This document shows, one piece after another, positions 18,727-42,258 of a DNA stretch of 52,887 nucleotides (positions are counted from its first letter, which is position 1; every line of letters starts with the position of its first letter). Under the pieces are notes generated by a model. It ran no database searches and was not told the DNA's origin. It saw only the letters and a list, made by a program, of their open reading frames with translations. The DNA comes from a virus. The stretch is taken from positions 1 through 52,887 of the IMG/VR virus record IMGVR_UViG_3300042549_005911; one strand, given 5' to 3'. Made by a program: the position numbers and the translations under genes.

Positions 18727-19926
18727 ATGAGCGGTTCAATTGCAGCGGGCTCACTTACCGAAATTGGCTATGTTGCTGAAGTCACTTTCGGCACAACCCC
18801 GGTCAGTTCGGCTTTTCAGCGCGTTCGCGACGTAAGTTTCTCGGTCAATCTTCAGAAGGAAGCCTATCAGTCGGAGGAGCGTCGCTCTGACCGTATGCGC
18901 CAAGATGTGCGCCACGGCTATCGCTCTGTCACTGGTGACATTGTTGGTGAGCTTTCTCAGCAGTCTTGGGATGACTTTATTGAAGCCATCATGGGCGGCA
19001 CTTGGGCAACCGGCGCTTCGGCTCCTTTCACCAGCGTTGCTTCCAACTCGGCCACCAATCGCATTACGGTAGGCTCAGCCAACTTCCCGACGCTTGGGGT
19101 TCGCGTTGGCGACGTTTTCGCAATCACCGCAACCCCCGCAGTGGCGGGTTTGACTGATCGCTTCTTCACCGCACTGAGCGTCGGCGTGTCCACCATTGAG
19201 GTTGAGCCCGGCACTATCGGGACCACGGCTACCGCTTCCGCTGTTATTGCAGTTGCAGGCCGCAAGGTTGCCATCGGCACTACCTATCGCTCTTTCACCA
19301 TCGAGCGTTGGTTGACAGACCGCAGCCTATACCAGCAGTTCCGTGGCGTCCGTTTGAACCAGATGACCATTTCCATCCCGGCTTCTGGCCTAGTAAGCGT
19401 GACGTTCGGTGTTATCGGACAGAACGGCACAGGGTTCTCTGCATCTTCTGTGGCTTCTACCTACACCGCTGCACCGCAGACCACCCCCTTTGCTGCTGTC
19501 AACGGCGAGTTGTATGAAGGCGGCGCTGTTCTTGGCCTTGTCACCGCTGCCGAGTTGACTGTCAACAACAACATGGCAGGGCCTCAGGTAGTTGGCGCCA
19601 ACGTGACGCCTGACCTTCTTTTTGGTCGATTTGCCGATGTGAGCGGCACGATTACCATTTTGTTCACCAATGCTGACATGCACAACAAGTTCGTGAACGA
19701 GACGGAATCGACACTTATTCTGCGGCTTCAGAATAAGGATTCGCTCGACAGCACGACTGAGTTTGTAACCCTCGTTCTACCCCGTATCAAGTACAGCGGC
19801 GGTGACGTGGACGATAGCCCCGACACGGGCATCACCGTGACCATGCCTTTCGTGGCGCTGAAGCCCCTTGCAGCCAACGTCACGCAAGGCACGTCTTCGC
19901 TCTCGATCCAGCGCGGTAACGCGTAA
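18727..19926 (+). CDS. Major tail tube protein
   Basis: A 399-residue tail tube protein. The N-terminus MSGSIAAGSL, then AEVTFGTTP, FQRVRDVSFSVNLQKE and HGYRSVTGDIVGELS, is the signature of a widespread siphovirus tube family. The middle is Ala/Thr/Ser-rich beta structure and the C-terminus has the conserved LPRIKYSGGDV. It should polymerise into hexameric rings around the tape measure. It has its own promoter, a strong AGGAGAA RBS and a stable hairpin after its stop, consistent with high expression. A paralogue follows at 20312. Confidence 0.85.
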   Translation: MSGSIAAGSLTEIGYVAEVTFGTTPVSSAFQRVRDVSFSVNLQKEAYQSEERRSDRMRQDVRHGYRSVTGDIVGELSQQSWDDFIEAIMGGTWATGASAPFTSVASNSATNRITVGSANFPTLGVRVGDVFAITATPAVAGLTDRFFTALSVGVSTIEVEPGTIGTTATASAVIAVAGRKVAIGTTYRSFTIERWLTDRSLYQQFRGVRLNQMTISIPASGLVSVTFGVIGQNGTGFSASSVASTYTAAPQTTPFAAVNGELYEGGAVLGLVTAAELTVNNNMAGPQVVGANVTPDLLFGRFADVSGTITILFTNADMHNKFVNETESTLILRLQNKDSLDSTTEFVTLVLPRIKYSGGDVDDSPDTGITVTMPFVALKPLAANVTQGTSSLSIQRGNA

Positions 19927-20311: not shown

Positions 20312-22744
20312 ATGAGCGGTAGTATCGCAGCAGGCTCGCTTGCCGAATATACTTATGTCGCGGAAAGCGTCTTTGGCTCTACGCCTGTAGGCCAACCGTT
20401 TAAGCGTATCCGTGACGTAAATCTCAACGTCAACCTACAAAAAGAAACTAGGCAACCTGACGCTAGGCTCTCGTCCCGAGTGCGACAAAATCTATTCCAC
20501 GGATATAGGAGTGTAGCGGGGGACATTGTAGGCGAGGTTTCAGAACAGTCTTGGGATGATCTGCTTGAAGCAGCCATAGGCGGAACGTGGGCGACGGCGG
20601 CACCTATCGCGAGTGCGTTTACGGCGAGTGTTGATGCAGCGAACAGCCGCATCACCTGCCTAACCGCAGGCTATGACCTGATTTCAAACGGCTTCAGGGA
20701 TGGCGAAGTTTTCTACCTTACTTCTCCAAATGGGCCTGTGGCTGGTATAACGGGTGTATATCTTACCGCAGTTAGCGTTTCCGCATCGACAATCCAAGTA
20801 GAGCCGGGGACTCTTACCTCTACTTCTTCAAGTGTCGCCGTCAATCGTGTGTATGAGGTAGGGCGCAAAGCATCGCTTGAGGGCACGTATCGTTCTTTTA
20901 CTGTTGAACGTTGGCTCTCAGACCTCAATCTCTACCAGCAGTTCAAGGGTATCCGAGTTAATCAGGTCACGTTCTCTGTGCCTGCTTCCGGCCTCGCTAC
21001 TCTTTCCTTCAATCTTATAGGCCGGGATGCTTCTTCTTTCTCCTCTACAAGCACTGCCTCTACATATGCGGACGCCGCACAAACAACGCCATACACAGCT
21101 ATAAATGGCACGCTCTTTGAAGGCAGCAATGTCCTTGGCGTGGTTACTGCGGCTGAAATTTCGATCAACAACAGCATGTTGGCGCCGCAGACGGTGGGCT
21201 CCGAAACTGTATCTAATATCTTCTTCGGACGTTTTGTAGAAGTAACGGGGCAGATTAGCGTTCTTTTTTCAAGTTCATCCGCTTTCGATAAGTTTATCCA
21301 AGAGACAGAATCCAAACTTATACTGCAATTGCAGAATACACAGGCCCTAGACGCGGATACAAAATTCATAAGCATCGTCATCCCACGCCTAAAATACTCT
21401 GGCGGCAGCATAGATACTACTTCGGATAGCGGGGTTACTGTCTCACTCCCCTTTGTGGCGTTGACACCACTTGCGGCAAATCCGCAACAGGGCACAGCGC
21501 CTATTTATATCCAAGCAAGCAACTTAGTCCCTAGGACGCAGACTTTTAGTTTTCTAACTGGCGTGCCTTCAGGATGGACCTACAGCCGCGCCAGCAACGC
21601 TACGTATTTCAATAGTTCAGGTGTTTTGACTGTTGCGAGTGCGGATGTTGCGCGGGTTGACTACAACCCGAATGGTTTGGCGTTGCGAGGCTTGGCGTTA
21701 GAACCCTCTCGCACAAATTGGGTTCGCAACAGCATCGCTAGTGCTACGGTAGCAGGAACGCCGGGAACGCTACCTACGACTTGGAGCGGGGGCACTCAAA
21801 CAAGCGTAACACGGCAGATCGTCGGGGCAGGCACCGAGGATGGTATCGAATATATTGATATAAGATGGGCAGGAAATGGCGGGGAGGCTGCGTTTGAATT
21901 GGTTCTCGATGGAGGAACGCACGCTTCTGCGGCAAACGGGCAAGTCTGGGTAGGCACCGTTTTTCTAAAATTGGTCGCTGGTTCTTTTACAGGATTAGGC
22001 GGGACAGGCCCAAGAATTTATGAATTTCCCGGCGTGTCACAAACCACAACGGACATAAGAAGCACTGTGACCGGCGCTACTCTTAGAACTCAGCGAATCC
22101 AGGTAACAAGAACAAATGTAAACGCGGGCACTACCTACGAGCAAATGCGTTTTCTCATAACACCATCGGCAACAGCATGGGACTTTACGTTGCGTTTTGG
22201 CCTACCACAACTAGAACTAGGCAATACGATTACCAGCCCGATCAAGACTTCAGGAGCAACAGTCACTCGCGCTGCTGACCGCTTAACTTATAGTCTAAGT
22301 GCAAATGCACCTTGGTTCCAATCTCCTAACGGGTATGCGTATTCAGTTGAATTTTTGTCCGCAAGCAACTCGCAAGGTAGTGGCATAGTGTATGCTGGGA
22401 CATCAGGTGGCTCTTTTAGCAATACCTCATACTTTACTGAAAATTTCACATATCTCATAAACGGGGTAGGAGATAACGGCGTTAGTCTGACCGCTCAATT
22501 CCGCGCCGCCTTCACCGCCAATAAAGTAGGCGCTTCAATCAATTATGCTGGCGCTCGATATTCAATAAACGGAGCAGCCCTTACCGCATCTACGTTTGCA
22601 CGCGCAGGCTATGCGGCTATGACAAACGTATCTGTTTTAAGCTCACCTTGGGGAGGAGGTAACTACGTTATCGGCTGGGCGCGCTCAGCTACGCTCTCAA
22701 ATTACTTTTACTCTGACAGTGAATTGCGAGCCCTTACAACTTAA
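20312..22744 (+). CDS. Tail tube paralogue fused to spike/lectin-like domain
   Basis: An 810-residue protein. Residues 1 to about 400 are a clear paralogue of the preceding tube protein: the same MSGSIAAGSL start, HGYRSV.GDIVGE.S.QSWDD, and LPRLKYSGG-like end. A second half of about 400 residues is added. It begins GWTYSRASNATYF, LRGLALEPSRTN and continues as beta-rich sequence with FGLPQLELGNT and a final IGWARSATLSNYFYSDSELRALT. This matches the phage head-spike/concanavalin-like module used as a surface decoration. The likely role is a minor tube subunit carrying carbohydrate-binding domains outward. Stop at 22742-22744. Confidence 0.85.
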   Translation: MSGSIAAGSLAEYTYVAESVFGSTPVGQPFKRIRDVNLNVNLQKETRQPDARLSSRVRQNLFHGYRSVAGDIVGEVSEQSWDDLLEAAIGGTWATAAPIASAFTASVDAANSRITCLTAGYDLISNGFRDGEVFYLTSPNGPVAGITGVYLTAVSVSASTIQVEPGTLTSTSSSVAVNRVYEVGRKASLEGTYRSFTVERWLSDLNLYQQFKGIRVNQVTFSVPASGLATLSFNLIGRDASSFSSTSTASTYADAAQTTPYTAINGTLFEGSNVLGVVTAAEISINNSMLAPQTVGSETVSNIFFGRFVEVTGQISVLFSSSSAFDKFIQETESKLILQLQNTQALDADTKFISIVIPRLKYSGGSIDTTSDSGVTVSLPFVALTPLAANPQQGTAPIYIQASNLVPRTQTFSFLTGVPSGWTYSRASNATYFNSSGVLTVASADVARVDYNPNGLALRGLALEPSRTNWVRNSIASATVAGTPGTLPTTWSGGTQTSVTRQIVGAGTEDGIEYIDIRWAGNGGEAAFELVLDGGTHASAANGQVWVGTVFLKLVAGSFTGLGGTGPRIYEFPGVSQTTTDIRSTVTGATLRTQRIQVTRTNVNAGTTYEQMRFLITPSATAWDFTLRFGLPQLELGNTITSPIKTSGATVTRAADRLTYSLSANAPWFQSPNGYAYSVEFLSASNSQGSGIVYAGTSGGSFSNTSYFTENFTYLINGVGDNGVSLTAQFRAAFTANKVGASINYAGARYSINGAALTASTFARAGYAAMTNVSVLSSPWGGGNYVIGWARSATLSNYFYSDSELRALTT

Positions 22745-22830: not shown

Positions 22831-23232
22831 ATGTCACTAGACGCCCTCGCCGTCGATGTTTCCAACGCCGTCCCTATCACCATCCTACACCCAAAGACGC
22901 GCCAACCGCTGCGCGATGCGGCAGGTAAGGAAGCCTTCATTTCCGTGGTCAGCCTTGACAGCCCCGAAGTGCAGAAGGTGCAGAAGGCCGCGCTCAACAA
23001 GCGCCTGAAGATGCGTGGGCGCGTCACCATGACCGCTGATGAGCTTGAGGCGGAGCGTGCTGAGGCGCTGGTTGCTGCCACCAAGGACTGGTATCTGGTA
23101 GGCCTTGACGGCTCTCCGCTGAACGCGCCGCTGAACGATACGACTGCGCGCACGATCTACACAGACCTTCGCTTCTCGTGGATCAAGGAGCAGGTTAGCG
23201 AGGCGCTTGACGACCGCGCCACGTTTCTTTGA
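22831..23232 (+). CDS. Tail assembly chaperone, short form (gpG-like)
   Basis: A 133-residue protein from ATG 22831 after AGGAGG (11 nt upstream). Upstream TTG at 22777 has no RBS. VPITILHPKTRQPLRDAAGKEAF begins the protein; LYPGDV-like features are absent. Position before the tape measure and overlap with the next ORF in another frame identify it as the first half of the tail assembly chaperone pair, which binds the tape measure during tail assembly. It ends ...ACG TTT CTT TGA, a likely +1 frameshift site into the downstream frame. Confidence 0.82.
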   Translation: MSLDALAVDVSNAVPITILHPKTRQPLRDAAGKEAFISVVSLDSPEVQKVQKAALNKRLKMRGRVTMTADELEAERAEALVAATKDWYLVGLDGSPLNAPLNDTTARTIYTDLRFSWIKEQVSEALDDRATFL

Positions 23233-23698
23233 GGATAGCTTATCCTTTCTCAAGGAACACGCGGAACGCTACTTCGCGCTTAACCTGAAGAAAGAAGACG
23301 GGTCGAGTGAGGCGGATAGCCTCACTCGCGCCCTATCTGCGGTTAGCCGCAGAACAGACAGCGCCTCAAAGCAGCAGAAACTTGAGATTGAGGCGCGGCT
23401 AGACCTACCCCCCATGCCAGAAGAATTTACTTTTGCGTGGGGGAGTTTTGTTGACCTGCAATCAACCCGTGGGTCAAATGGGTTCTCGTCAAACCCGATC
23501 ACTTATTTAGAAATAGAAGCCTATATCCGCCTATCCGGCCGCGTATTGCTTCCGCATGAGATACGCGCTATAAAAGTAATTGACACCGCATTTCTCGAAG
23601 CCCAAGCCGACCTCGCCAAAGCAGCAAGGGCCGCTAAAGATGCGTCAAAGAAATCTGAACAAATGCCTGCGCCAAAGAGATCGACTAGACGGGGGTAG
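23207..23698 (+). CDS. Tail assembly chaperone extension (gpGT-like, +1 frame)
   Basis: The frame open from 23207 to 23698 has no convincing independent start (TTG only). It is best read as the C-terminal extension reached by a +1 shift at 23227-23230, joining ATFL to EDSLSFLKEHAERYFALNL. It contains LPPMPEEFTFAWGSFVDLQSTRG and YLEIEAYIRLSGRVLLPHEI, typical of phage T-type chaperone domains, and a basic C-terminus. The fused GT form would be about 289 residues. The tape measure gene starts 3 nt after its stop. Confidence 0.8.
   Translation: MTTAPRFFEDSLSFLKEHAERYFALNLKKEDGSSEADSLTRALSAVSRRTDSASKQQKLEIEARLDLPPMPEEFTFAWGSFVDLQSTRGSNGFSSNPITYLEIEAYIRLSGRVLLPHEIRAIKVIDTAFLEAQADLAKAARAAKDASKKSEQMPAPKRSTRRG
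23224..23232 (+). other. Candidate +1 programmed frameshift site CTT TGA
   Basis: The last codons of the short chaperone are TTT CTT TGA. CTT TGA is the core of the bacterial prfB +1 frameshift site, where peptidyl-tRNA slips from CUU to UUU before a slow UGA stop. Slippage here enters exactly the downstream chaperone frame (next codon GAG). No upstream Shine-Dalgarno stimulator like that of prfB is visible. Confidence 0.65.
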
Positions 23699-23700
23699 GG

Positions 23701-26700
23701 TTGTCGGATTCAGTTGCTAATCTTACAGTCAAAGTTGATACCAAGTCGGTCAGCGCCGCAGTTCAGGCGTTGGATAAACTTGCGGCGGTTGCGGCTAAGG
23801 TAGAAGAGTCTCTAAAAGGTATTGGTGGTAAGGCTCCAGGACTAGGTAGGGGAGCGGGAGGGGCTGAGGAAGGGGCTAAGAAGTCTGAGCGCGCATTGGC
23901 GAAAATGGAGAAGCGCCTAGAAGACGGCGCCAAGAAGTATGAGCAGATTACCCGGCTAGTCAACAAATATGCTTTGTCAGAAGGTATGCGCGCGGACACT
24001 ATGAACCGCGTTAATCGTGCTTTTGAGCAGTATAACCGCGTGGCGGGCAACGTCAATGCAACCACAATTCAGATGGACCGTGCGACCCGCCGCTACAATC
24101 AAGCGATTGAGCAGACTAAGACGGGTATTGACTCTGTTATTAAACTTGAGAATCAGCGCAATGCAGAAAGACGGAAAAGCGAAAGAGAGCAAGACGCCGC
24201 AACTAAAGCCGCTGAAAAGGCGCGGCAACAAGAAATCAAAGATACGCGTGCTCTTGAACGGGTCTTACAACAGGCACAAACCCGTGTGTCTGGTATATCT
24301 CTGCGCGCTAGCAGGCAGACTCCGTTAGAACAAGCGTTCCGCATTGACGATAGTGCGCAACGGGCGCTGAACCAATACGCTTCAACCCTAAAACAATACG
24401 GGACGGGCAGCCTCCAAGCTGAGACAGCTTCGGGTAAATTCAACCGTTCAATGCAGGCTTTGAGCAACGAAATTGCTAAAACTGGCGGCCTTCTCACGCG
24501 TGTGAGCGACAACGCCCGCGTCTTCTCGGCAGCTTTTGGCGCGGCTAACGCCTCGTTGGGCGGCTTTAGTCGCGTAGCGTTCAATACCTCGGCGGCACTG
24601 AGCGCGCTTTCAGGCACTCTTGCATTGCGTGAGATCATTCAAGCGGGCCTAGAAATTGATAAGTTTGTTAACACGTTAAAAACCGTTTCAGAAGGCTCTC
24701 TGGGTTTTCAACGTAATCTTAATTTCCTTTTTGAAGAAGCAAACCGAGTTGGCTTTGCTGTTGGCGATGTAGGCAACTCTTTTGCGCGCCTATCTCTGGC
24801 TATGAAAGGTGCTGGCTTCCAAGGCGCAGAGACACGAGAAGTCTTCTCTGAGTTGGTAGCTGCCTCTCGTAACTTCGGACTTTCTTCTGCTGAGACAATG
24901 GGCGTCATTCGGGCCTTGGAACAATCCATGTCCAAGGGCAAGTTCATGGCTGAAGAAGTGCGAAATCAGATGGGCGACCGCCTGCCTGTTGCGATGGCAG
25001 CACTTGAGCGCGCGGTTACAAAGGTTGACGGCAAGCAATCGGATTTGAATAAGCGGTTTGAAGAAGGCACGATTGATACAAAGCGCTACGCAGTAGAATT
25101 TGTTCGGCAAATCTACGCCATGTCTGGTGGCGCGGAAACCCTCAACCGCACGTCACAGTCTGTTGGTTCTGCGTTCGGCAGGCTCACGACCGAATTGACC
25201 AAAACCAATATGCTTTTCAAGGAAGCGGGTTTTGATGAAGCATTGATTTCTACTACTGACCAAATCCGCAAGTTGATTGAAACCGCCCGTGAATCTGGCG
25301 CGGTTGAAGTCCTTGCTAAGTCGCTTGTAACTCTAGCCAATAACCTCGATTTGGTGGCGGGGGCTCTTACCGCGTTTGCTGCTGTTGGTTTCGTTCGTAT
25401 TCTAACGGCGCTAGCGTCTAAGTGGGTGGCCATCGGCCTCGCCGTTGCAGCGGTTGGTGCGGGTATCGCGGGTTTGATGCGCGGCCCTGCGAGAGACTTG
25501 GATCAATTTGATAAGACAGTAAAGCAATTTGATAAAACATACGCGAATTTGTCCGAACGCATCAACGCGGTGAACGCCTCTTTGATATCCGGCACTTCGC
25601 GAGCAGCTTCAAGTGCAGAAAGTGATTTTGAAAAGCTGATTACTTCTTACAGGAAACTTGGATACGAGGCTTCCAAGGCGCTGGTTATGGCGCTCAAAGT
25701 GCAGGAAGAAGAGGCCAAGAGGAGCGTAAAAGAACTTGAAACTCGGATAGAAGAGGCTCAGAACCGCCTTTCTTCTATCATGCCCAAAGCGGAGTTTTTT
25801 CAAGTTGTCAGTTTCTTGCAAACAGCAGCGGGAGCGCTCCCTGCGTATAACACGCAGATTCTTAAGGCTGTAGAAAACCTAAACACTTGGTATGAAAGTG
25901 TTAAAAAAGGGGAAATGCCTCTAGCGGATTTTGTAGAAAAACTTTCTAAAATTCAATCAGAAATGCAAGTTATTATCGAAAAAACGCCAGACGGTTCAGG
26001 AGCACTATCCGCGTTCTCTAACGCAGCAGCAAATTTTATAAAGATTATCCAAAGCCCCGTCAATTTGCAGAATATCGGTAACGCTATTTCTGAAGTTCTC
26101 CGGTTAACTGGATTGCTTGGCACAGCCCAACAAGGCTTACAATCTCTTACTTCGCTCCGCCAAAATATTGAAGGCGGTCGTCCCTTAGAAGCAATTCCCC
26201 CGGTAGAAAACCTACCTATGGCCCCGGGGTCACGAACGCGACTGAATTTTAGCGGATATGTTTCAGTTAAAGAGGCCCAAGACTTAAAGGCTGGCGAACA
26301 AGTTCTCCAAGACGCATACCGGCGAACAAACAAAGACGCTAAGGCTGTTGTCAATACGACTTTGTATTTGGAGCAAGTCAGAGAGGCAGCGAGGCTCGGG
26401 GACGTAAATGCAATAAAAATTTATGCCGACTATAACGCCGCACTCGCCAAAAACGATACAAAGATAACAGGCACAGAAAAAAGCCTCCGTAAATACACGG
26501 AAACGCTTCAAATTGAGCTTGACACACACCAAGGGCTCCTGGAAGCCTACAAGCAAAGCACGCTTGCTGGCGACGATATGGAAGTGCAGATCAAGGCGCA
26601 GACCAAGGCGCTTGATTACGGCACCAAGGGTTCTATTGAGTATAAGAACGCGCTTGCGGCCATCTTGCCTTTGATGCGCCAAAGGTCAGACCAAGAAAAA

Positions 26701-29298
26701 GACACAGAGGCGGTAAAGGCCAACACCAAGCAGCGCGAGCAAGAGATTTCGCTACTTGAAAAAGAGCGAAGCCTTATCGGAATGAACATAAATCTGCGAG
26801 AGCAGGAGCTTGCCGCTTTCCGCGCTCGCCAGCAAAACGAAGGCCGCGCTCCTGACGTTATATTGGCGGCAGAAGACCAAGCTCGCAAAATTGTCCGCAT
26901 TCGTCAAGAAACTGACCAGCTTGATAACTCTTATAAAGAGATGGCCAACATCGGCGTTCGCGCCTTTGAGCAAGTTGGCGACGCCATTACAGAAGCCTTT
27001 GCTAAGGGCGAAATCCGCGCTCTTAACTTCGGCAACGTCATCCGTGGCGTCATGTCGTCCATCGTCCAATCTATCCTGCGCCTTGGTGTTATCAACCCAA
27101 TTATTAATTCGATCTTCTCTGGCACCATGCTCCCGACGCTAGGCGCGGGCCTTTCTATTCTAGGTGGCGGTGGCGCTGCGGCAGCGGGGGCTGCGGGCGC
27201 TGCGGCGGGTGGCGGCGGTATCCTTTCTAGCCTTGGCCAGTTGACAGGCCTTTCGAACCTACTGCCGAGCGGTGGACTCAGTGGCATGATGGCGAGCGCC
27301 AACAGCTATCTGTTTGGCACGCCGGCATCCATGGCTATCGTGGACCCCACAGGCATCCCATCGGCGGTGGCCGGCACTTCGGGCCTTCTCGGCTCTGGCG
27401 GCTCCATGTCGCTGGGGGCTCTCGGCGCCGGGTTTGGCGTTGGCATGTTCACCAACAGCTTGTTGGGTGGAAATCAACTCGGCGGCGGGATCGGGTCGGG
27501 CGTCGGCTCTCTGGCAGGCATGGCGCTTGGCAGTATGATTGGGATGCCATTTCTAGGCGCTATTCTAGGCGGCGCCGCTGGCGGCGGTCTAGGCGGCCTC
27601 ATTGGCCCCAAGCCTTCCAGCAAAGGCTTTAGTTACGCCCTGCGGTCGCAGGACGGACAACTTGCTATGACTGATACGTATTACAACGAACAAGGCCGCG
27701 CTCAGTTCGAGGAAGCAAACACTAAGATACCTGCTATTAACGCATATCTTAGGCAACGCGGCCTCACAGTATCTGGCGTCCGCGCTGTGGGCGGTAATAA
27801 ATATGGCATGGGCAACCTTGGCTACGGCGAAGCGGCAAGTTTCAATGAAGCCCTCGGTTCTCTAAAGTTTGCAGCTACGGCCAACGAAGAATTGAATAAG
27901 GCGCTTTCAACTCGTTCCTTTGCTGGCCCTGAAAAGCTGCAAGAGTTTGTGGACGGCTTTATCGCCCTACAAGACACGATTAAGGGCCTGACTGCGGACC
28001 CCGTGCCTGAGTTCAAGAAGCAGATGGACGCGCTGATTGACTCCTTCGCCCAAGCCACAGCCAAAGCCCGTGAATATGGTATTGGCGAAGAAGAACTGTT
28101 GGCTGCGCGAGATAAGCAAATCGCCAAGCTGGAAGAACAACGTAGTCTGACTATCCGTGATACGGCCCTTGAGATGCATGTGCGTCGCCTCATGGCGGAA
28201 GGCATGGACCAAGAGGCGCAGCGTATCGAGCTTGCTTATAAGACTCAGAAGGAAATCGAATCCTTCACCGCATCGCTTGACGCGCTAGGTATTTCTGCCG
28301 AAGAAAAGTCTCGTCTGCTTGTTGAACTTGAAAGGACACAGGCCGCAGAACGAGTTAAGATTCTGAAGGATGCTAATAAGAACATCCGTGATTATCTTGA
28401 CTCGCTTCGCACCAGCAGCCCGCTGTCGGGCACAACGACCATGGGGCGCCTCGGCGCCGCGCAAGAACTATTTAACCGCGACTTGGCGGCGGCCCAAACA
28501 GGCAACGTGGATGCGCTTAATCGCATCACGCAATCGGCAGACACGCTCCTCAATCTAGCTCGCGAAGTGTATGCCTCTACAGGCGGCTTCCACGATATCC
28601 GTGGCCGCGTTGTCTCGGGTCTAGAATCGCTCGCTACCACGCCTATGTCCCAGCAGAGCCTTCCTGATTTGGCGAGTGTGCCCTTGGTCGCAGAAATGAC
28701 CAACCTACGCACCAACGCCGCGATTGCCGAGACGGCAGAATACACGAAGCGGTTTGATAGCAAGTTGGCTGAGTTGCTGCCAATCGCACAGGCGATCCAG
28801 GCTGCGGTGGAGCAGGCAAACCAAAACACGTCAACTTCTTCAGGAAGCGTAGGTTTTGGGGATTATGCGGGGCCAGATTCCAATTCAAGTGGGAGTTTCG
28901 GTGGAAGCATAGAATCACAAGGGGCGATGCCTGCCGCACTAGGCGCTGTCATGAAATATGGCCGCGTCATGGCCTACGCCAACGGCGGCATCCCCGACTA
29001 CGTAAATAGCCCCACGCTTGCACCTATGGCCCTCTTTGGCGAAGCAGGCCCCGAAGCTATTATGCCGCTTCGCCGTGGCCCTGACGGACGCCTTGGCGTT
29101 GAGGTCAACGGTTCTGATAATCAAGCCGTTGTCTCTGAATTGCGCGCAGTCCGCGATGAGATTGTCTCGCTCCGTGAGGCTACAGTGGATTCGGATGGCA
29201 ACGAAAGCACAGGGCTAGTTGAAGCCATTGCTGAACTTCGAGTACAGGTAGGAGGGCTTCGTGAAGAACTCCGCACGGCTCGTCTGAGGGCGCAATGA
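23701..29298 (+). CDS. Tail tape measure protein
   Basis: At 1,865 residues this is the longest gene; tape measure length sets tail length, and at the usual 0.15 nm per residue it suggests a tail near 280 nm. The N-terminus has coiled coil (KRLEDGAKKYEQITRL). The conserved tape-measure domain follows (NLNFLFEEANRVGFAVGDVG, MSKGKFMAEEVRNQMGDRLP). A hydrophobic segment lies around LVAGALTAFAAVGF and VAIGLAVAAVGAGIAGLM, then long helices, a Gly/Ala-rich region near residues 1,150-1,300, and the lambda-like C-terminal motif LFGEAGPEAIMPLRRGPDG. The start is TTG after GGGGGTAGGG. The end overlaps the next gene. Confidence 0.93.
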   Translation: MSDSVANLTVKVDTKSVSAAVQALDKLAAVAAKVEESLKGIGGKAPGLGRGAGGAEEGAKKSERALAKMEKRLEDGAKKYEQITRLVNKYALSEGMRADTMNRVNRAFEQYNRVAGNVNATTIQMDRATRRYNQAIEQTKTGIDSVIKLENQRNAERRKSEREQDAATKAAEKARQQEIKDTRALERVLQQAQTRVSGISLRASRQTPLEQAFRIDDSAQRALNQYASTLKQYGTGSLQAETASGKFNRSMQALSNEIAKTGGLLTRVSDNARVFSAAFGAANASLGGFSRVAFNTSAALSALSGTLALREIIQAGLEIDKFVNTLKTVSEGSLGFQRNLNFLFEEANRVGFAVGDVGNSFARLSLAMKGAGFQGAETREVFSELVAASRNFGLSSAETMGVIRALEQSMSKGKFMAEEVRNQMGDRLPVAMAALERAVTKVDGKQSDLNKRFEEGTIDTKRYAVEFVRQIYAMSGGAETLNRTSQSVGSAFGRLTTELTKTNMLFKEAGFDEALISTTDQIRKLIETARESGAVEVLAKSLVTLANNLDLVAGALTAFAAVGFVRILTALASKWVAIGLAVAAVGAGIAGLMRGPARDLDQFDKTVKQFDKTYANLSERINAVNASLISGTSRAASSAESDFEKLITSYRKLGYEASKALVMALKVQEEEAKRSVKELETRIEEAQNRLSSIMPKAEFFQVVSFLQTAAGALPAYNTQILKAVENLNTWYESVKKGEMPLADFVEKLSKIQSEMQVIIEKTPDGSGALSAFSNAAANFIKIIQSPVNLQNIGNAISEVLRLTGLLGTAQQGLQSLTSLRQNIEGGRPLEAIPPVENLPMAPGSRTRLNFSGYVSVKEAQDLKAGEQVLQDAYRRTNKDAKAVVNTTLYLEQVREAARLGDVNAIKIYADYNAALAKNDTKITGTEKSLRKYTETLQIELDTHQGLLEAYKQSTLAGDDMEVQIKAQTKALDYGTKGSIEYKNALAAILPLMRQRSDQEKDTEAVKANTKQREQEISLLEKERSLIGMNINLREQELAAFRARQQNEGRAPDVILAAEDQARKIVRIRQETDQLDNSYKEMANIGVRAFEQVGDAITEAFAKGEIRALNFGNVIRGVMSSIVQSILRLGVINPIINSIFSGTMLPTLGAGLSILGGGGAAAAGAAGAAAGGGGILSSLGQLTGLSNLLPSGGLSGMMASANSYLFGTPASMAIVDPTGIPSAVAGTSGLLGSGGSMSLGALGAGFGVGMFTNSLLGGNQLGGGIGSGVGSLAGMALGSMIGMPFLGAILGGAAGGGLGGLIGPKPSSKGFSYALRSQDGQLAMTDTYYNEQGRAQFEEANTKIPAINAYLRQRGLTVSGVRAVGGNKYGMGNLGYGEAASFNEALGSLKFAATANEELNKALSTRSFAGPEKLQEFVDGFIALQDTIKGLTADPVPEFKKQMDALIDSFAQATAKAREYGIGEEELLAARDKQIAKLEEQRSLTIRDTALEMHVRRLMAEGMDQEAQRIELAYKTQKEIESFTASLDALGISAEEKSRLLVELERTQAAERVKILKDANKNIRDYLDSLRTSSPLSGTTTMGRLGAAQELFNRDLAAAQTGNVDALNRITQSADTLLNLAREVYASTGGFHDIRGRVVSGLESLATTPMSQQSLPDLASVPLVAEMTNLRTNAAIAETAEYTKRFDSKLAELLPIAQAIQAAVEQANQNTSTSSGSVGFGDYAGPDSNSSGSFGGSIESQGAMPAALGAVMKYGRVMAYANGGIPDYVNSPTLAPMALFGEAGPEAIMPLRRGPDGRLGVEVNGSDNQAVVSELRAVRDEIVSLREATVDSDGNESTGLVEAIAELRVQVGGLREELRTARLRAQ

Positions 29299-36161: not shown

Positions 36162-36398
36162 ATGCCCCGCAAGAAGCAGGAAGTCGCTAGGTCGCAGTTG
36201 ATGGCGCAGGCAGAGCGCCTTGCTGAAATTGGCGTTGCCAAGGCTGCCATTGTCTTTTTTGACAATGATGGCGACATGGGAATGTGCTTTGCGGGTGGCA
36301 TCAGCAATATGGAGCTTGTGTTCGCTTTTGAACAGGCCAAGATGGCAGTGTTAAATGGCGAGCATGAAGACGACGAGGACGATGACGAAGAAGGGTAA
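36162..36398 (+). CDS. Small acidic-tailed hypothetical protein
   Basis: A 78-residue protein with a basic start (MPRKKQEVARSQL), a central FFDNDGDMGMCFAGGISNMELVFAFEQAK and an acidic tail (DDEDDDEEG). Similar small proteins occur in phage nucleotide operons; function unknown. AGAGGA precedes the ATG. Its stop codon TAA (36396-36398) lies inside the first stem of the following tRNA. Confidence 0.65.
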   Translation: MPRKKQEVARSQLMAQAERLAEIGVAKAAIVFFDNDGDMGMCFAGGISNMELVFAFEQAKMAVLNGEHEDDEDDDEEG

Positions 36399-36471
36399 GC
36401 GTAGCTTAATCAGGTAGAGCGGCCTGCTCATAACAGGCTGGGTGCGGGTTCGAGTCCTGCCGCTTACACCA
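36395..36471 (+). tRNA. tRNA with CAU anticodon (Met elongator or Ile2)
   Basis: A complete cloverleaf: acceptor GTAAGCG/CGCTTAC, D-arm GCTT/GAGC, anticodon stem GCCTG/CAGGC with loop CTCATAA (anticodon CAT), T-stem GCGGG/CCTGC with TTCGAGT loop, discriminator A and encoded CCA. G1-C72 excludes an initiator. Elongator Met and lysidine-modified Ile(AUA) cannot be separated from sequence alone. Its 5' end overlaps the stop codon of the preceding gene. Confidence 0.93.
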
Positions 36472-36890: not shown

Positions 36891-36978
36891 GGAGGCGTGG
36901 CGGAACTGGCATACGCGGCAGACTCAAAATCTGCTGACCTTAACGGTATTGTGGGTTCGAGTCCCACCGCCTCTACCA
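36891..36978 (+). tRNA. tRNA-Leu (CAA)
   Basis: An 88-nt class II tRNA with acceptor GGAGGCG/CGCCTCT (G1-U72 wobble), anticodon stem GCAGA/TCTGC with loop CTCAAAA (anticodon CAA), a long variable arm, T-arm GTGGG/CCCAC with TTCGAGT, discriminator A and encoded CCA. It reads UUG codons. Confidence 0.94.
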
Positions 36979-37032: not shown

Positions 37033-38169
37033 TTAGCCAGCGACGCGGACGGCGAGGGCAGGGCGAACTGCCTTGGCGCCGTATAGCACGTCCACAGCGA
37101 AGCGCTCTTGCTTGTTGTGGCGGGTCACTTCCATACGCATGGTCAGGCCAGACACCGGATCGGTCATCTGCGAGATGATCGAGCCAAGCTCGGGGCCACC
37201 ACCCACGCCAGCCAGCGGACGGTTCACGAAGGCGAAGGCTTCGCGCTGGAAGGCAAGGTTGACCACATGCGAAGCGCGCTTGGACACGTCAGAGCCGCTA
37301 GACGCAATCGCCACCAGCGGAGGGCTGATAGTAATAGCGGCCTTGGTGCTGGTGTAGGTCGCGTTGGCCGAAGTCACCACGTAGGTCTGGGTGTTGCCTG
37401 CAATGCTGAACACGTCGCCACGGCGCAGGGTGCCTGCCACGGAGGCGAGGATATCCAGCGAGGTAGCACCAATAGCCGTGGTGGAAGCCACGGTGATGCT
37501 TGCGGCGGTGCCAGCAACGTGGGTCACAACGTTGGTGGACTGGAAGAAGTCGAAGCCGAACTTACGGCCAAGCATACCCTCGATCTTCACTTCCTGGTCG
37601 CCGGTTTTTTCCAGATCGGACATAGCAGGAATCTGAAGAAGCTGAGCCTCGGCATCCGGGTTCAGGACCATGCGGCGGTTGCCCATGGGGGAAAGCTGAC
37701 GGTTTAGGGCCGCACGAGCGTTCACCACGTCAGCAATGGTGCTGAACGGGGTCTGACCGGCAACGCCCACGTATCCATACACGTCCACATACTGGCTGTG
37801 GATGTAGCCGTCCATGGAGTTGGCAAGAGCGCGAACAGTCTCGGAGACGTTCATCGGGAGGAAGGATTCGCTCTCCATGATCTCCATGCGCTGCTTGTCA
37901 GTGATGAAGAAGGGAACTTCCTTCCACTGGTCAAGAGCGATCTGCACGAGGCCGGGGGTGCTGTCCTGAGCCGAAGCGGGGGTCATGGACGGAGCAACGT
38001 CGGTGGCGGTAAAGGTGTTGCTGATCGGAATGTCGATGGTGGAACCACGCATCGCACCTTCAGACGAGTAATCAAGGTTGACTAGGCGCGGCATGATCGC
38101 CTGCTCACGTAGAGCAAGAAGACCACGAGCGAGAAGCCGGGGAATGAGGTTTGACAAACTATTGGGCAT
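37033..38169 (-). CDS. Major capsid protein, P22 coat-like
   Basis: A 378-residue coat protein. The sequence matches the P22 gp5-like branch of the HK97 fold: the N-terminal region has DYSSEGAMRGSTIDIPI, then VPFFITDKQRMEIM, GNRRMVLNPDAEAQLL and KIEGMLGRKFGFDFFQSTNV; an insertion-domain-like beta segment (about residues 215-290, GTLRRGDVFSIAGNTQTYVV) and LAFQREAFAFVNRPL follow. It forms the icosahedral shell. It is on the minus strand with scaffold and portal upstream, and it has its own TTGACT promoter, consistent with the high output needed. Confidence 0.88.
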   Translation of the reverse strand: MPNSLSNLIPRLLARGLLALREQAIMPRLVNLDYSSEGAMRGSTIDIPISNTFTATDVAPSMTPASAQDSTPGLVQIALDQWKEVPFFITDKQRMEIMESESFLPMNVSETVRALANSMDGYIHSQYVDVYGYVGVAGQTPFSTIADVVNARAALNRQLSPMGNRRMVLNPDAEAQLLQIPAMSDLEKTGDQEVKIEGMLGRKFGFDFFQSTNVVTHVAGTAASITVASTTAIGATSLDILASVAGTLRRGDVFSIAGNTQTYVVTSANATYTSTKAAITISPPLVAIASSGSDVSKRASHVVNLAFQREAFAFVNRPLAGVGGGPELGSIISQMTDPVSGLTMRMEVTRHNKQERFAVDVLYGAKAVRPALAVRVAG

Positions 38170-38306
38170 AGTAATCTCCTGTGCTTATAGGGTTTACCGG
38201 CACTCCCGCCGTTGAAACCCGAAGGATTCCGCGAACCGCGCACAACCCACAAGGGAGGCGGGAATTAATTTCGACCCCACAAGGGCAAGAAATGTAAACG
38301 CTCTTT

Positions 38307-38335
38307 TCTTATGGTAAAGTAAACCACAAAGTCAA
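38307..38335 (-). promoter_or_regulatory. Predicted promoter of the coat gene
   Basis: On the minus strand TTGACT (38335-38330), a 17-nt spacer and ATAAGA (38312-38307) lie upstream of the coat start. The -35 box touches the hairpin at 38335-38365. Confidence 0.55.
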
Positions 38336-38365
38336 TACCTACGGGGTTTTAGGCCCCGTAGGTAT
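38335..38365. terminator. 12-bp hairpin between scaffold and coat genes
   Basis: ATACCTACGGGG (38335-38346) and CCCCGTAGGTAT (38354-38365) are perfect complements. A T5 run follows after three bases on the plus strand; on the minus strand no T-run follows. It could end antisense transcripts or protect the coat mRNA. Confidence 0.5.
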
Positions 38366-38375
38366 CTGTTTTTGC

Positions 38376-39161
38376 TTACGCGACCACTGCCTTGCCAGAC
38401 GCAATCGCTTCAAGATTGCCGCTGATTGCCTTGGCGTCAGTGGCGTTGATCCTAACCGGAGCGCGGTCGCCGCCTCGGCCATTGCCGCCGCCTGCGCCAC
38501 CACCAGAAGGGATGCCAAAGAAGAACGGGTTGGTATCGCGAAGTGACTCCACCCACGTATCGAGCGTATGGGGGTTGCCGCTGCGATCAATCACATCAAC
38601 GCCTTCACGCAAAGCAGGCTTGCCGCTTTCGTCGTCAAGCACGAACATCTGCTCGGCCTTGATACGAATATACTCGGCAGCCTCAGGCAACGCCTTAGCC
38701 TTACTGACGGCGGAGGTTACTTCATAGTTCAGCCGCTCAGACCGCCAACGGTTCTGCGCTGCTTCTGCGCGTGCGGCGGCATCCTGCGCTGCCCGCTCTG
38801 CGGCTTCCTTGGCGGCGCGTTCAGCCCCAACCACAGACTTAGTGCGGCGGGTAAGCACGTCCTCAAACGCCGCCTTGCCGCCCTCCACAATCATGCGAAG
38901 GTCCGCATCGGCCTGCATACGCTCCATGAGGTCACGGGCCTTATTGATATCGTCTTGGCTGCCCATACTCTGAATCTGAACTTCATAGGTCTTGCGCTTT
39001 TCGCGCTCTGCCTTGACCTCGTTTAGAAGTTCATCATTCTTTGACTTGAGGCCTTGGGTGGCCTTTGCCACTTCAGCGGCAACTAGGGCCGCAATGTCGG
39101 GCGCACCGCCTCCGCCCTCTGCATTGTAATTCATTTGGTTCTGAAGGGACCGGATAAACAT
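38376..39161 (-). CDS. Probable scaffolding protein
   Basis: A 261-residue, mostly helical, charged protein with a coiled-coil centre (AKEAAERAAQDAAARAEAAQ; LKSKNDELLNEVKAEREKRK) and a C-terminal Gly-rich stretch (GGGAGGGNGRGGD), then NLEAIASGKAVV. The composition and its place immediately upstream of the coat gene are typical of phage scaffold proteins that guide procapsid assembly and leave or are degraded afterwards. Start at ATG 39161; a GGAG upstream on the minus strand supports it. Confidence 0.75.
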   Translation of the reverse strand: MFIRSLQNQMNYNAEGGGGAPDIAALVAAEVAKATQGLKSKNDELLNEVKAEREKRKTYEVQIQSMGSQDDINKARDLMERMQADADLRMIVEGGKAAFEDVLTRRTKSVVGAERAAKEAAERAAQDAAARAEAAQNRWRSERLNYEVTSAVSKAKALPEAAEYIRIKAEQMFVLDDESGKPALREGVDVIDRSGNPHTLDTWVESLRDTNPFFFGIPSGGGAGGGNGRGGDRAPVRINATDAKAISGNLEAIASGKAVVA

Positions 39162-39228
39162 TTTACAAACTCTCCACAGGAGATCGCAATTAACCGATGC
39201 GATATACGGGCACGGCTCAGCCGCACGG

Positions 39229-39257
39229 TTGACTATTAGTGCCTAGATCATTGTATA
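39229..39257 (+). promoter_or_regulatory. Predicted promoter of the small plus-strand pair
   Basis: TTGACT (39229-39234), 17 nt, TGTATA (39252-39257), 33 nt before the ATG at 39291. It faces away from the scaffold gene. Confidence 0.6.
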
Positions 39258-39290
39258 CGGTAAATGCAACACCCTTATGAGGGAAAAGCC

Positions 39291-39671
39291 ATGGCTCCGC
39301 CGAAGAAGTATGAGAAAATTGATTTTACTCCGCCGCAAGGCGTGCAGAGCGCCGCCGAACGCGGGCTCGAACAGCGCCGTAAGTATGGGCGTGGCGGCCT
39401 TACTACCGCAGAAGCGGGCAAGCAAGGCATTGGCTCTGGCGTTGCCCGTGCTGCTACTTTGGCCGCAGGTAAGGACATCTCTCCTGAAACGGCCAAGCGC
39501 ATGAAAGCATTTTTCGACCGGCATGGCGACGCGCCGCAGGCTAAGCCTTCCGATGGTGGGCCGAGTGCGCGTGCAATCGCTATCAATCTTTGGGGCGGAC
39601 GTGCTGGTGAAGCATGGTCTGGTAAGTTGGTGCGGCAAATGAAAGCCGCTGATGAGAAGGCGAAGAAGTGA
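39291..39671 (+). CDS. Small basic phage protein
   Basis: A 126-residue protein from ATG 39291 (GAGGGAAAAG upstream; an earlier in-frame start at 39264 lacks an RBS). Features: PPKKYEKIDFTPPQGVQSAAERGLEQRRKYGRGG, then a repeat-like SGVARAATLAAGKDISPETAKRMKAFFDRH and a conserved INLWGGRAGEAWSGKLV end. This type is common in phage genomes near virion genes and looks nucleic-acid-binding, but function is unknown. It is on the opposite strand from the surrounding capsid genes and has its own promoter. Confidence 0.75.
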   Translation: MAPPKKYEKIDFTPPQGVQSAAERGLEQRRKYGRGGLTTAEAGKQGIGSGVARAATLAAGKDISPETAKRMKAFFDRHGDAPQAKPSDGGPSARAIAINLWGGRAGEAWSGKLVRQMKAADEKAKK

Positions 39672-39835
39672 TGGACAAGCCGCTTTGGGAAAAGAAGAAT
39701 CCCCGTAAACGCTCAACGGCGCTTAGCCCGCAAGATAAAGTTGCTGCCAAGCGCCGTGCTGAAAAGGCGGGCCGCCCCTACCCGAATGCGGTTGATAACA
39801 TCGCTCAAGCCCAAAAGGCTAAAAAGCGCGGTTAA
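39671..39835 (+). CDS. Very small basic protein
   Basis: A 54-residue Lys/Arg-rich protein in a TGATG overlap with the previous gene: MDKPLWEKKNPRKRS, then TALSPQDKVAAKRRAEKAGR and ending QAQKAKKRG. Its stop TAA (39833-39835) overlaps the stop of the opposite-strand gene, so TTAA at 39832-39835 ends both. Probably a companion of the upstream small protein; possibly nucleic-acid-binding. Confidence 0.7.
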   Translation: MDKPLWEKKNPRKRSTALSPQDKVAAKRRAEKAGRPYPNAVDNIAQAQKAKKRG

Positions 39836-40683
39836 CTGCCGCTTGGAATAACACGTTCCAAGAAAGCATCTGACTTTGCGGCCAAGGAGGCAGCGAGGCT
39901 GTCACCGATAAAATCAAACTTGCCTGGACTGGCCTTGGCCTTACGAGCAAGGGACATGGCGCTGGGCAGCAAGTCCGCCTTGGAGAACCACCGCTTGCCG
40001 TCTACGCGGCCTTGGTCATCGAGCGTAGGCCCTGAGGCGTTGCCCGCAGGCTCAGTCACCGTAGGCGCGTAGTAGTCTTCATCGTCGCGCCAGCCAAAAG
40101 GCGCTCCTGCAATGCAAATGCGCTTAGCGCCCATCCAACTAGCAACAGCAACAGCACGGTTTACAACGGTAAAACCGCCACTAGCCACACTTTCGTAGCT
40201 ACAATTTTCTGGAAAGTATTTTTCATAGATTTCCATTTCGCATAGATTTTCAAATGCAGCACCGCAAGCAGAATGGAAAAGCACCACATTTGCGCCGCCC
40301 TTTAAGAGATAATCAAACATTCTTGGATGACAAGAGGTAGCCACAAGGTATGTGACGCGCGAATCAAGAGGCGTCTTCTTAATCTGCTTCTCTCCGGGGT
40401 CCATCGCCACAGAGAAATCGGGGATGATGCCGTACTCCGGTAGAATACGAATCGCCTGCTTTACTGCAAAAACCTTATAGCCAAGGCTTTGCAGCCGCTT
40501 GATTTCTCGCAGAGAGGACGCCTTGACCAAAGATGGCGCTGTGCCACAGACAACAACGCCTTTCAGATCGGCCAGCGCGTCCTTTTGCACGAAAGGCAAA
40601 TTGAGGCTTGCTGCGTATTCGATATTCATAGGAAGAAAGCCAACTTCAGGGTTGACCAGTTTCATGAAGTTGGGCGGTGCCAT
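39832..40683 (-). CDS. DUF115 / MptE-like protein, possible sugar transferase
   Basis: A 283-residue protein with the DUF115 signature: VVVCGTAPSL, then GYKVFAVKQAI, YGIIPDFSVAMDP, a later SGGFTVVNRAVAVASWMGAKRICIAGAPFGW. DUF115 members include pterin pyrophosphokinase-like and flagellin-glycosylation (Maf-like) proteins. It lies among the capsid genes, between portal and scaffold, so it might act on the virion surface or on host glycans; the function is inference. Together with the sugar genes at 14585-16817 it indicates a carbohydrate theme. Confidence 0.78.
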   Translation of the reverse strand: MAPPNFMKLVNPEVGFLPMNIEYAASLNLPFVQKDALADLKGVVVCGTAPSLVKASSLREIKRLQSLGYKVFAVKQAIRILPEYGIIPDFSVAMDPGEKQIKKTPLDSRVTYLVATSCHPRMFDYLLKGGANVVLFHSACGAAFENLCEMEIYEKYFPENCSYESVASGGFTVVNRAVAVASWMGAKRICIAGAPFGWRDDEDYYAPTVTEPAGNASGPTLDDQGRVDGKRWFSKADLLPSAMSLARKAKASPGKFDFIGDSLAASLAAKSDAFLERVIPSGS

Positions 40684-40716
40684 GTCTACCTAAAATTAAA
40701 ATCGAGTTGCACCGCC

Positions 40717-42123
40717 CTATGCGGATGCTTCTTGCGCCATATCTGCCCGCATCTGTGGCGCCATGTCAATCATCTTCTTGACTTGGGCCGGGCCATAAGT
40801 GGACGGAAGCATCTCGCCTTCAAATAGGACGCGGTAATAGGTTTCGTCATCAATATTACCGGCTGCATGAGCCCTGTCCAACTGCAACCAAGTGCGGTAT
40901 TCGAGTGCTGCATCAACGAAATCACGGTTCAACTTGACTTCTACGCCCTGCGGATTGCGGCCGTTCCACCGGACCCAGATTTTCAAAAGTTCTGTCAGGC
41001 CCTTCTCCGCACTGTCTACAATCTCGTAAAGCAAGGAAGTCTCTCCCTTGCCGCGCATCTCTGCAACCTGATTGGATTCGCCCGCCGTGTTCTTGCGGTC
41101 GGCCACGAGGCGCGCGCCAAGGCTTGCCATCTGCGCCTCAAGTTGTGAGCAAGCAGATTCAAGATACTTAAGCCCTTCACCACGATATTCCAAAATACCG
41201 CACGAGTTGGGTTGATCCACAAGCCAAACAGTGTTGGGACCAACACGGTATTCAGGCAATTCATCGCCAAGGTTAGGTGCAATCGCCCAATAGGTCGGTG
41301 TAGCCGTATAGAACTGGCCGTGAGCCAATTGCGCGCTGCGTTGGAAGTGCAGGACGTTCAACTCAGCAATATCCAGAATAGGTGGGCGCTGCACCTTCAT
41401 GCCTGTCTTCATAGGCCCAAAGCAAATGAAGGGCATCTCGCCTCGGAAGAAGCCGCTGTCCGCCAACATAGGGGACACTACGCTTCCAGGCTGGTAGGAA
41501 GTGCTGTTGTCCTTGCTCTTGACCGGAAGCCAAAGGCGCTGGCGATAGATACCCGTCTCGTCAAGATAGAGTTCGCGGTAGACGGTCACTTCCTCAGAAC
41601 CAAAACCTGTTTGGCTATCTACAAGGAAATCTTCTTTCAGCACAATTTGGTTGGCAACGAGGCGCCCGTTGTCGTCGCGCATGTTGCGCCAGTTGGTGAT
41701 GTTCTCTGCCATATAGGTTGTGAAGTAGGGTGCGCCGCCATTAGTTGGCGCATCTACCAACGCACCTACGCGCCCCATGCTTAGAATTTCACGGACAATA
41801 GCACGGGCAAAAACAGTAAACGGTTGATTATCAACGGTGCAGGTTTCAAGCTGAGGCCGCAGCATTTCAGCGCCGTTCAGGATAATCTCTGGCTCCTTGC
41901 GGAAGATCATGCCGACAAGCCCATTGAGCGTGCGGGCAGAAGCGTTGAAGAACTGAGCGCGCTTCTTATACGCTTCATACTCCCCGTAACTCATACCAGA
42001 TAGCTGAGGCAGATACTTCTGGCCGCCTTCTCGGATGGCCTTGGCGCCCTTCAGCACATCCCGGATCATTTGCCAGTCATCTTGGTTGGCGCTGTATTCC
42101 GGTGCAAGGTCGGTGACGGCCAT
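40717..42123 (-). CDS. Portal protein, DUF4055-like
   Basis: A 468-residue portal taken from ATG 42123 (MAVTDLAPEYSANQ) with AGGA upstream; a longer in-frame start at 42186 would include the promoter. Features: YLPQLSGMSYGEYEAYKKRAQFFNASARTL, GRVGALVDAP, MPFICFGPM, LNVLHFQRSAQLAHGQFYTA and VRWNGRNPQGVEVKLN, matching DUF4055 portals. It forms the dodecameric DNA entry ring. It diverges from the terminase genes. Confidence 0.85.
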   Translation of the reverse strand: MAVTDLAPEYSANQDDWQMIRDVLKGAKAIREGGQKYLPQLSGMSYGEYEAYKKRAQFFNASARTLNGLVGMIFRKEPEIILNGAEMLRPQLETCTVDNQPFTVFARAIVREILSMGRVGALVDAPTNGGAPYFTTYMAENITNWRNMRDDNGRLVANQIVLKEDFLVDSQTGFGSEEVTVYRELYLDETGIYRQRLWLPVKSKDNSTSYQPGSVVSPMLADSGFFRGEMPFICFGPMKTGMKVQRPPILDIAELNVLHFQRSAQLAHGQFYTATPTYWAIAPNLGDELPEYRVGPNTVWLVDQPNSCGILEYRGEGLKYLESACSQLEAQMASLGARLVADRKNTAGESNQVAEMRGKGETSLLYEIVDSAEKGLTELLKIWVRWNGRNPQGVEVKLNRDFVDAALEYRTWLQLDRAHAAGNIDDETYYRVLFEGEMLPSTYGPAQVKKMIDMAPQMRADMAQEASA

Positions 42124-42157
42124 GGTGCAAATCCTGAAAAGCAATATAAGGTTGCAG

Positions 42158-42186
42158 GGGTAACGCTTTGGCAGGCAAGAAGTCAA
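42158..42186 (-). promoter_or_regulatory. Predicted promoter of the portal gene
   Basis: Minus strand TTGACT (42186-42181), a 17-nt spacer and TTACCC (42163-42158). The -10 box is poor, but the -35 and position match the other predicted promoters. Confidence 0.4.
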
Positions 42187-42193
42187 TGCAGCC

Positions 42194-42222
42194 TTGACTT
42201 TAACATGCGAGCGAGTGGATAA
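42194..42222 (+). promoter_or_regulatory. Predicted promoter of the terminase operon
   Basis: TTGACT (42194-42199), 17 nt, GGATAA (42217-42222); with an 18-nt spacer the -10 would be GATAAA. It is back to back with the portal promoter, making a divergent regulatory region. Confidence 0.6.
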
Positions 42223-42258
42223 ACAACGTTAGTAACGTTTTTTAGGAAGAATCTAATC

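Follow-up and report, generated by a model that had tools for sequence, protein, structure and literature searches.

The locus considered here raises the question of how two overlapping tail genes, the second of them in the +1 frame of the first, could be read as one protein, and at which codon the ribosome would change frame. The G/GT-type frameshift of tail chaperone genes is conserved in most long-tailed dsDNA phages and is usually −1. In the window (the whole stretch of 52,887 bases that was analysed, from an IMG/VR virus record), ORF1 ends in GCC ACG TTT (23224–23226) CTT (23227–23229) TGA (23230–23232), ORF2 lies in the +1 (equally −2) frame relative to it, and the first ORF2-frame codon past the junction is GAG at 23231. 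The first-pass annotation had described this CTT TGA end and the +1 relation of the downstream frame, both of which the sequence confirms, and had taken CTT TGA for a slippery core of the release factor 2 (prfB) type. The features that bear on the question are these:

22831–23232, plus strand: ORF1, the tail assembly chaperone short form (gpG-like), 133 amino acids, ATG start; assigned from PHROG_313 and AlphaFold/BFVD matches
23231–23698, plus strand: ORF2, the C-terminal (T-like) domain, predicted to be read after a +1 shift; assigned from PF23812 Phage_TAC_18 and frame-specific synonymous bias
23224–23227, plus strand: predicted +1 slippery tetranucleotide TTT_C, at which the P-site Phe codon UUU would re-pair to UUC; assigned from conservation
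23227–23232, plus strand: CTT TGA, the A-site codon and ORF1 stop; a possible secondary, prfB-like slip site, in the window's subgroup only
23207–23209, plus strand: TTG, the window's sole ATG/GTG/TTG near the junction able to start ORF2; not conserved
23701–29298, plus strand: tape measure protein gene, 1865 amino acids, TTG start after GGGGGTAGGG; assigned from position, length and gene order
18727–19926 and 20312–22744: Phage_tube_2 proteins upstream of ORF1/ORF2

Gene layout and protein families

The two overlapping ORFs lie between the major tail protein and tape measure genes, which is the G/GT-type layout; the open reading frame list gives ORF2 as running from the TTG at 23207 to 23698. 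ORF1 matched the profile of the PHROG_313 tail assembly chaperone family (3.3e-9) and ORF2 matched Pfam PF23812 Phage_TAC_18 (2.4e-13), and the tail chaperone families in which we found ORF1 and ORF2 to belong are PHROG_313, PHROG_3817, PHROG_8233 and PF23812. The two halves were modelled separately with AlphaFold. The ORF1 model (pLDDT 83) resembled predicted phage tape-measure/tail chaperones in BFVD, with E values of about 1e-4 to 1e-3 for the named ones, and its matches include two Caulobacter phage Sansa proteins of 161 and 310 amino acids. A Foldseek search of the PDB matched neither half to a solved structure.

Three further observations concern the surrounding genes. The adjacent genes at 18727–19926 (399 amino acids) and 20312–22744 (810 amino acids) each match Phage_tube_2/PHROG_290, so that this phage may have two tail tube proteins; the product of the second has an additional C-terminal portion of about 400 amino acids that matches another tail protein family, PHROG_5939. 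Genes for a P22-type coat protein and a DUF4055 protein (both minus strand) and a terminase (plus strand) lie apart from the tail genes, at 37033–44279. The phage tRNA genes are tRNA-Met(CAT) and tRNA-Leu(CAA), at 36395–36471 and 36891–36978, and tRNA-Leu(CAA) reads TTG.

The ORF1/ORF2 junction in relatives

Together with the window, 21 viral-contig relatives of 70–100% identity in which the junction is covered make up a group of 22 loci, hereafter the window group (two, L011 and L017, are cut within ORF2). The +1 layout of ORF1 and ORF2 is present in all 21 relatives. ORF1 ends in TTT CTT TGA at 12 loci, in TTT CTA TGA at six, in TTT TCT TGA at three and in TTT CTC TGA at one, the CTT TGA core being kept only in the window's immediate subgroup. 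The base after TGA in this group is G or A.

A second lineage came from a tblastn search with ORF2, which led to Limnohabitans phage DC31 and Curvibacter phage P26059A. ORF1 closes with CTG AAC TTT CGA TCC GAG TGA in the first and with ACT AAC TTT CGA CCC AAA TGA in the second, ORF2 is in +1 in each, and neither annotation includes the fusion. With a +1 step taken at TTTC, the DC31 fusion matched PHROG_313 over positions 18–251 of 258 in one stretch spanning the junction (5.9e-19), as expected for a real fusion. Sixty-three viral-contig relatives of these two phages keep AAY TTT, followed by CGA, CGC, CGT, one CAA, or TGC. The +1 frame in this DC31 group opens 6–30 nt before the end of TTTC, usually 6–9 nt, and the stop comes directly after the A-site codon in nine loci (TAA in five, TGA in four) and otherwise one or two codons later; the TAA stops are those of L096, L109, L111, L113 and L122. 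Where the stop adjoins CGA, the only codons at which a shift could occur are AAY, TTT and CGA, and of these only UUU re-pairs (to UUC).

Six further +1 loci (L182, L186, L187, L204, L209 and L213) add AAC TTT CAA, AAT TTT CGT, TCC TTT CTC and TCC TTT TGT to the range of sites. The total is thus 93 +1 loci, made up of 87 tabulated loci (70 distinct) and these six. Three loci that the script had called +1 are not counted: L172 is placed with the −1 relatives, L184 may carry an indel, and L199 had the wrong upstream ORF. At about position 1993 L184 has the G_GGA_AAC typical of −1 relatives, yet its ORF2 lies in the other frame; past the stop its length differs slightly, which may reflect sequencing error or a genuine change. 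Scans of genomes for relatives in prophages found none.

At all 93 loci the ORF1/ORF2 overlap contains, in frame 0, a TTT and then a pyrimidine (of the 87 tabulated loci, 82 have C and 5 have T), and TTC is absent from the shift site of every one. The codons that end ORF1 vary among CTT-TGA, CTC-TGA, CTA-TGA, TCT-TGA, CGN..., CAA... and TGC-TGA, with CGN the commonest A-site codon (62 of the 87), and the stop is TGA or TAA at a variable distance from TTT. Conservation in relatives, which the first-pass annotation had put forward as a check on its claim, was therefore found for the +1 frame of ORF2, which recurs in both lineages, but for CTT TGA at only 12 of the 22 window-group loci.

These codons weigh heavily against the prfB-like reading, in which tRNA-Leu would slip from CUU to UUU while UGA awaits release factor 2, giving the join ATFL-EDSLSF. 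The window and 11 other window-group loci have the exact hexamer, and CUU_U is the most efficient +1 site tested in the prfB context (PMC5009743). However, close relatives with the same layout have CTC-TGA, CTA-TGA or TCT-TGA, with poor +1 re-pairing, and the second lineage has CGN, CAA or TGC at the site in place of CTT, with TGA or TAA stops at variable distances. Nor is there a Shine-Dalgarno (SD) sequence at the prfB spacing, and the base following UGA is G or A, not the C conserved in prfB. This phage encodes Leu most often by CTT, so that finding CTT here is unremarkable. The invariant element, TTT and then C or T, stands one codon upstream of CTT. The relatives' codons rule out a prfB-like CTT TGA as the conserved mechanism, and we consider CUU_UGA acting alone highly improbable even in the window, where it could nevertheless add a second slip.

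The Phe codon itself is constrained well beyond comparable codons. Elsewhere in these genes, Phe is encoded by TTT and TTC in a ratio of 80:81 among window-group loci and of 405:178 in the DC31 group. No synonymous change at the shift-site Phe codon was found on a tree (length 8.47) of 64 distinct sequences; 11 conserved two-fold codons, among them the shift codon, averaged 6.9 such changes, and the other two Phe codons that both groups conserve had 8 and 10. The DC31/P26059A group alone gave 0 versus 5.1; in the window group alone the test is low in power, because 18 of 55 such codons are unchanged there. As a control, the matching Phe codon in −1 relatives with G_GGA_AAN just upstream is free (TTC in 10, TTT in 5).

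The coding signature changes frame at the shift site, and selection is purifying before and after it. In the 20 codons that precede the site, the synonymous fraction in frame 0 was 0.94 for window-group loci and 0.73 for the DC31 group; after the site, the fraction in the +1 frame was 0.79 and then 0.94 in the former and 0.52 and then 0.81 in the latter, while the other frames gave 0.06–0.18. In the window group CTN keeps a frame-0 Leu and the +1 residue varies between F, S and Y, so the exact junction residue is unconstrained there. A second slippery-looking sequence, TCC TTT CTC at 23243–23251, occurs in the shifted frame a few codons past the junction and is not conserved in relatives.

This signature also bears on whether a fusion is made at all. 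Annotations in the broader family give the two as separate CDSs, and the arrangement might represent a pair of independent genes, a pseudogene or an error of sequencing. Against this, a single frame relation holds in 93 loci on many contigs, and purifying selection on both sides accompanies an invariant slip codon; we give the absence of a fusion very little credence.

ORF2 might instead be translated independently from its own start, whether the TTG at 23207 or an internal codon, coupled to termination of ORF1; the first-pass annotation had named efficient independent initiation, together with absence of the fusion peptide, as what would count against its claim. The TTG is present in the window, where the SD-like sequence upstream is only weak. 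In eight relatives (L009, L010 and L012–L017) the same position is an ORF2-frame TAG stop, 21 nt upstream of the junction, and no ATG, GTG or TTG follows that TAG for at least 57 nt in the seven that extend far enough, which excludes independent initiation at such a codon near the junction in those relatives. The TAG in these eight speaks strongly against the TTG as the start of ORF2. In the DC31 lineage the ORF2 frame has no ATG, GTG or TTG near the junction until well inside the conserved domain, and an independent start would leave the invariant UUU_Y unexplained. No credible start was thus found, and we regard such initiation as highly improbable.

Comparative sequence analysis shows the frame relation, the invariance of UUU_Y, the lack of alternative starts and the coding of both parts within tail chaperone families. 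The proposal of the first-pass annotation that ORF1 and ORF2 are a tail assembly chaperone pair joined by +1 and not −1 frameshifting is strongly supported by the family matches, the relatives and the frame switch, and the recurrence of the arrangement in two lineages goes beyond coincidence.

Proposed slippage at UUU_C

We propose that a programmed +1 frameshift at UUU_C near the end of ORF1 very probably produces a minority gpGT-like fusion alongside the ORF1-only chaperone. With tRNA-Phe on UUU in the P site and the A-site codon (CGN, CUN, CAA, UCU or UGC in relatives) waiting, the tRNA would slip one base forward onto the overlapping UUC (or UUU), which the same tRNA can read, and translation would then proceed in the ORF2 frame. 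By analogy with phage lambda, the short product would coat the tape measure protein, and recruitment of the tail tube protein would fall to the fusion. We infer the slippage itself, its site within the ribosome, its efficiency and the role in assembly.

The junction is then likely to read ATFF-EDSLSF. The ATFL-EDSLSF of the first-pass annotation is arithmetically correct for a slip at CTT, and is a possible second product in the window's subgroup, but is not the likelier join. Computed tryptic junction peptides are ATFFEDSLSFLK (M 1403.697) for a slip at UUU_C, ATFLEDSLSFLK (M 1369.713) for a slip at CUU_U and ATFLFEDSLSFLK (M 1516.781) for a −2 slip.

Two slippery tetranucleotides overlap in TTTCTTTGA, and both could be active in the window's subgroup, with UUU_C as the primary site and CUU_UGA catching ribosomes that had not slipped, to give a mixture of ATFF-EDSL and ATFL-EDSL. 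Relatives manage without CTT, and nothing argues directly against the added slip; we hold it to be a possible but doubtful elaboration, counted inside the probability of the main model, to which it adds and which it does not replace.

By sequence alone, slippage in the window group might also take place at CUU_U or by −2. In the latter case, tRNA-Leu on CUN, for example, would move back onto UUC; the ORF2 frame is equally −2, and a CUU-reading tRNA on UUC is a tolerable pairing in the window. The same shift in the DC31 lineage, however, would place tRNA-Phe on ACU or tRNA-Arg on UUC, both poor pairings, and peptide data for the same motif in PA-X gave +1 and not −2 (PMC3498833). A −2 shift accordingly seems to us quite improbable.

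Around the preferred UUU_C site, we found no SD-like element placed as in prfB, some 3 nt before the slip codon; the nearest SD-like words end 12–20 nt upstream of TTT. No 3' structure common to both +1 lineages was found; individual sequences downstream fold better than shuffles in places. A ten-base-pair hairpin, CGAGTGAGGC-GGATA-GCCTCACTCG, lies inside ORF2 at 23304–23328. Window-group loci retain it, with one or two compensatory changes, and it was not seen as such in the other lineage; because it lies about 75 nt past the shift site, shows so few compensatory changes and is not shared with the other lineage, we assign it no role.

UUU-pyrimidine sites in E. coli were reportedly described by Schwartz and Curran in 1997. 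UUU_Ynn is +1-prone in bacteria (review by Atkins et al., PMC5009743), UUU_C with CGU in the A site is the demonstrated site of influenza PA-X (PMC3498833), and amalgaviruses have UUU_CGN as their motif (PMC5052127). In Yersinia yopN, the hybrid was not lost after a silent UUU-to-UUC change at the proposed UUU_U site (PMC3789692), a result that calls for caution in inferring such slip sites.

Frameshift direction in the family and in known systems

The two +1 lineages sit among −1 relatives, a distribution which indicates that some members of the family have changed their direction of frameshifting. Of the 42 distinct −1 relatives, 35 have a canonical heptamer (G_GGA_AAC, A_AAT_TTT, T_TTT_TTC or others) in the final 20 codons of ORF1; none of the 87 tabulated +1 loci has an X_XXY_YYZ heptamer at the site. 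A quickly built tree of 51 representatives, which has long branches and leaves out the residues adjoining the junction, requires three changes of frameshift direction, and holding all +1 members together as one group was rejected (AU p 8e-5). L185, a single contig, is −1 with A_AAT_TTT and is sister to P26059A (+1, AAC_TTT_CGA) with 98% SH-aLRT. At about position 1990–2020 it reads ACA AAT TTT CAG CCG AAG AAT TAG, a −1 member nested in a +1 clade, and it is possibly a recent switch of frameshift direction.

We think it reasonably likely that UUU_Y is a second recurrent solution for tail chaperones, and that one and the same Phe codon can serve in either a −1 heptamer or a +1 UUU_Y, with phages able to go from one to the other, as L185 and P26059A suggest; selection would hold the ratio of short to long product, with the direction interchangeable. 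Matched −1 and +1 relatives of one gene make the cost and evolutionary route of direction switching directly testable. Annotation that relies on heptamers only will miss such fusions, for example in Limnohabitans phage DC31 and Curvibacter phage P26059A.

Compared with lambda G/GT, the locus has the same place between tail tube and tape measure genes, a short chaperone with a predicted minority C-terminally extended fusion, and the family profiles PHROG_313 and Phage_TAC_18. It differs in its predicted +1 shift on UUU_Y without a heptamer, where lambda shifts −1 on X_XXY_YYZ, although −1 heptamer slippage is common in the G/GT class and not required of every member. Release factor 2 prfB resembles the locus in that CUU UGA happens to close the short form within the window's subgroup; here there is no SD at the prfB spacing, CUU and the adjacent stop are unconserved, no C follows UGA, and the gene and its purpose are different. 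Listeria phages PSA, A118 and A500 also have +1 frameshifts in structural genes (CCC_UGA in tsh, CCC_UCC in PSA cps), but these use tRNA-Pro on CCC, in tail shaft and capsid genes and not in chaperones. Haloarchaeal HSTV-2 is another related +1 case.

In Proteobacteria, FseA (msi172-msi171) of ICEMlSym and the proposed YopN-TyeA site likewise shift +1 at UUU (site assignment PMC5009743), in genes unrelated to these; tail chaperones are not among the cases in that review. We found no report of UUU_Y in phage tail chaperones in the open-licence papers covered, which is no proof of absence. What would be new here is UUU_Y in phage tail chaperones, its tendency to +1 shifts in bacteria being already known.

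A further parallel is with the UUU_C and UUU_CGN sites of influenza A PA-X and plant amalgaviruses, which share the P-site slip proposed here, the preference for CGN in the A site and apparently the lack of a strong stimulator. Here, in contrast, the ribosomes are bacterial, the gene serves structural assembly in DNA phages, the A-site codon may also be CUN, CAA, UCU or UGC, and the E-site codon is AAY, ACG or UCC. Firth et al. (2012) predicted a wider +1 class of UUU_C with restricted neighbouring codons, with examples from eukaryotic viruses (PMC3498833). The tail chaperone family looks like a large natural instance of UUU_C on bacterial ribosomes, with dozens of A- and E-site variants.
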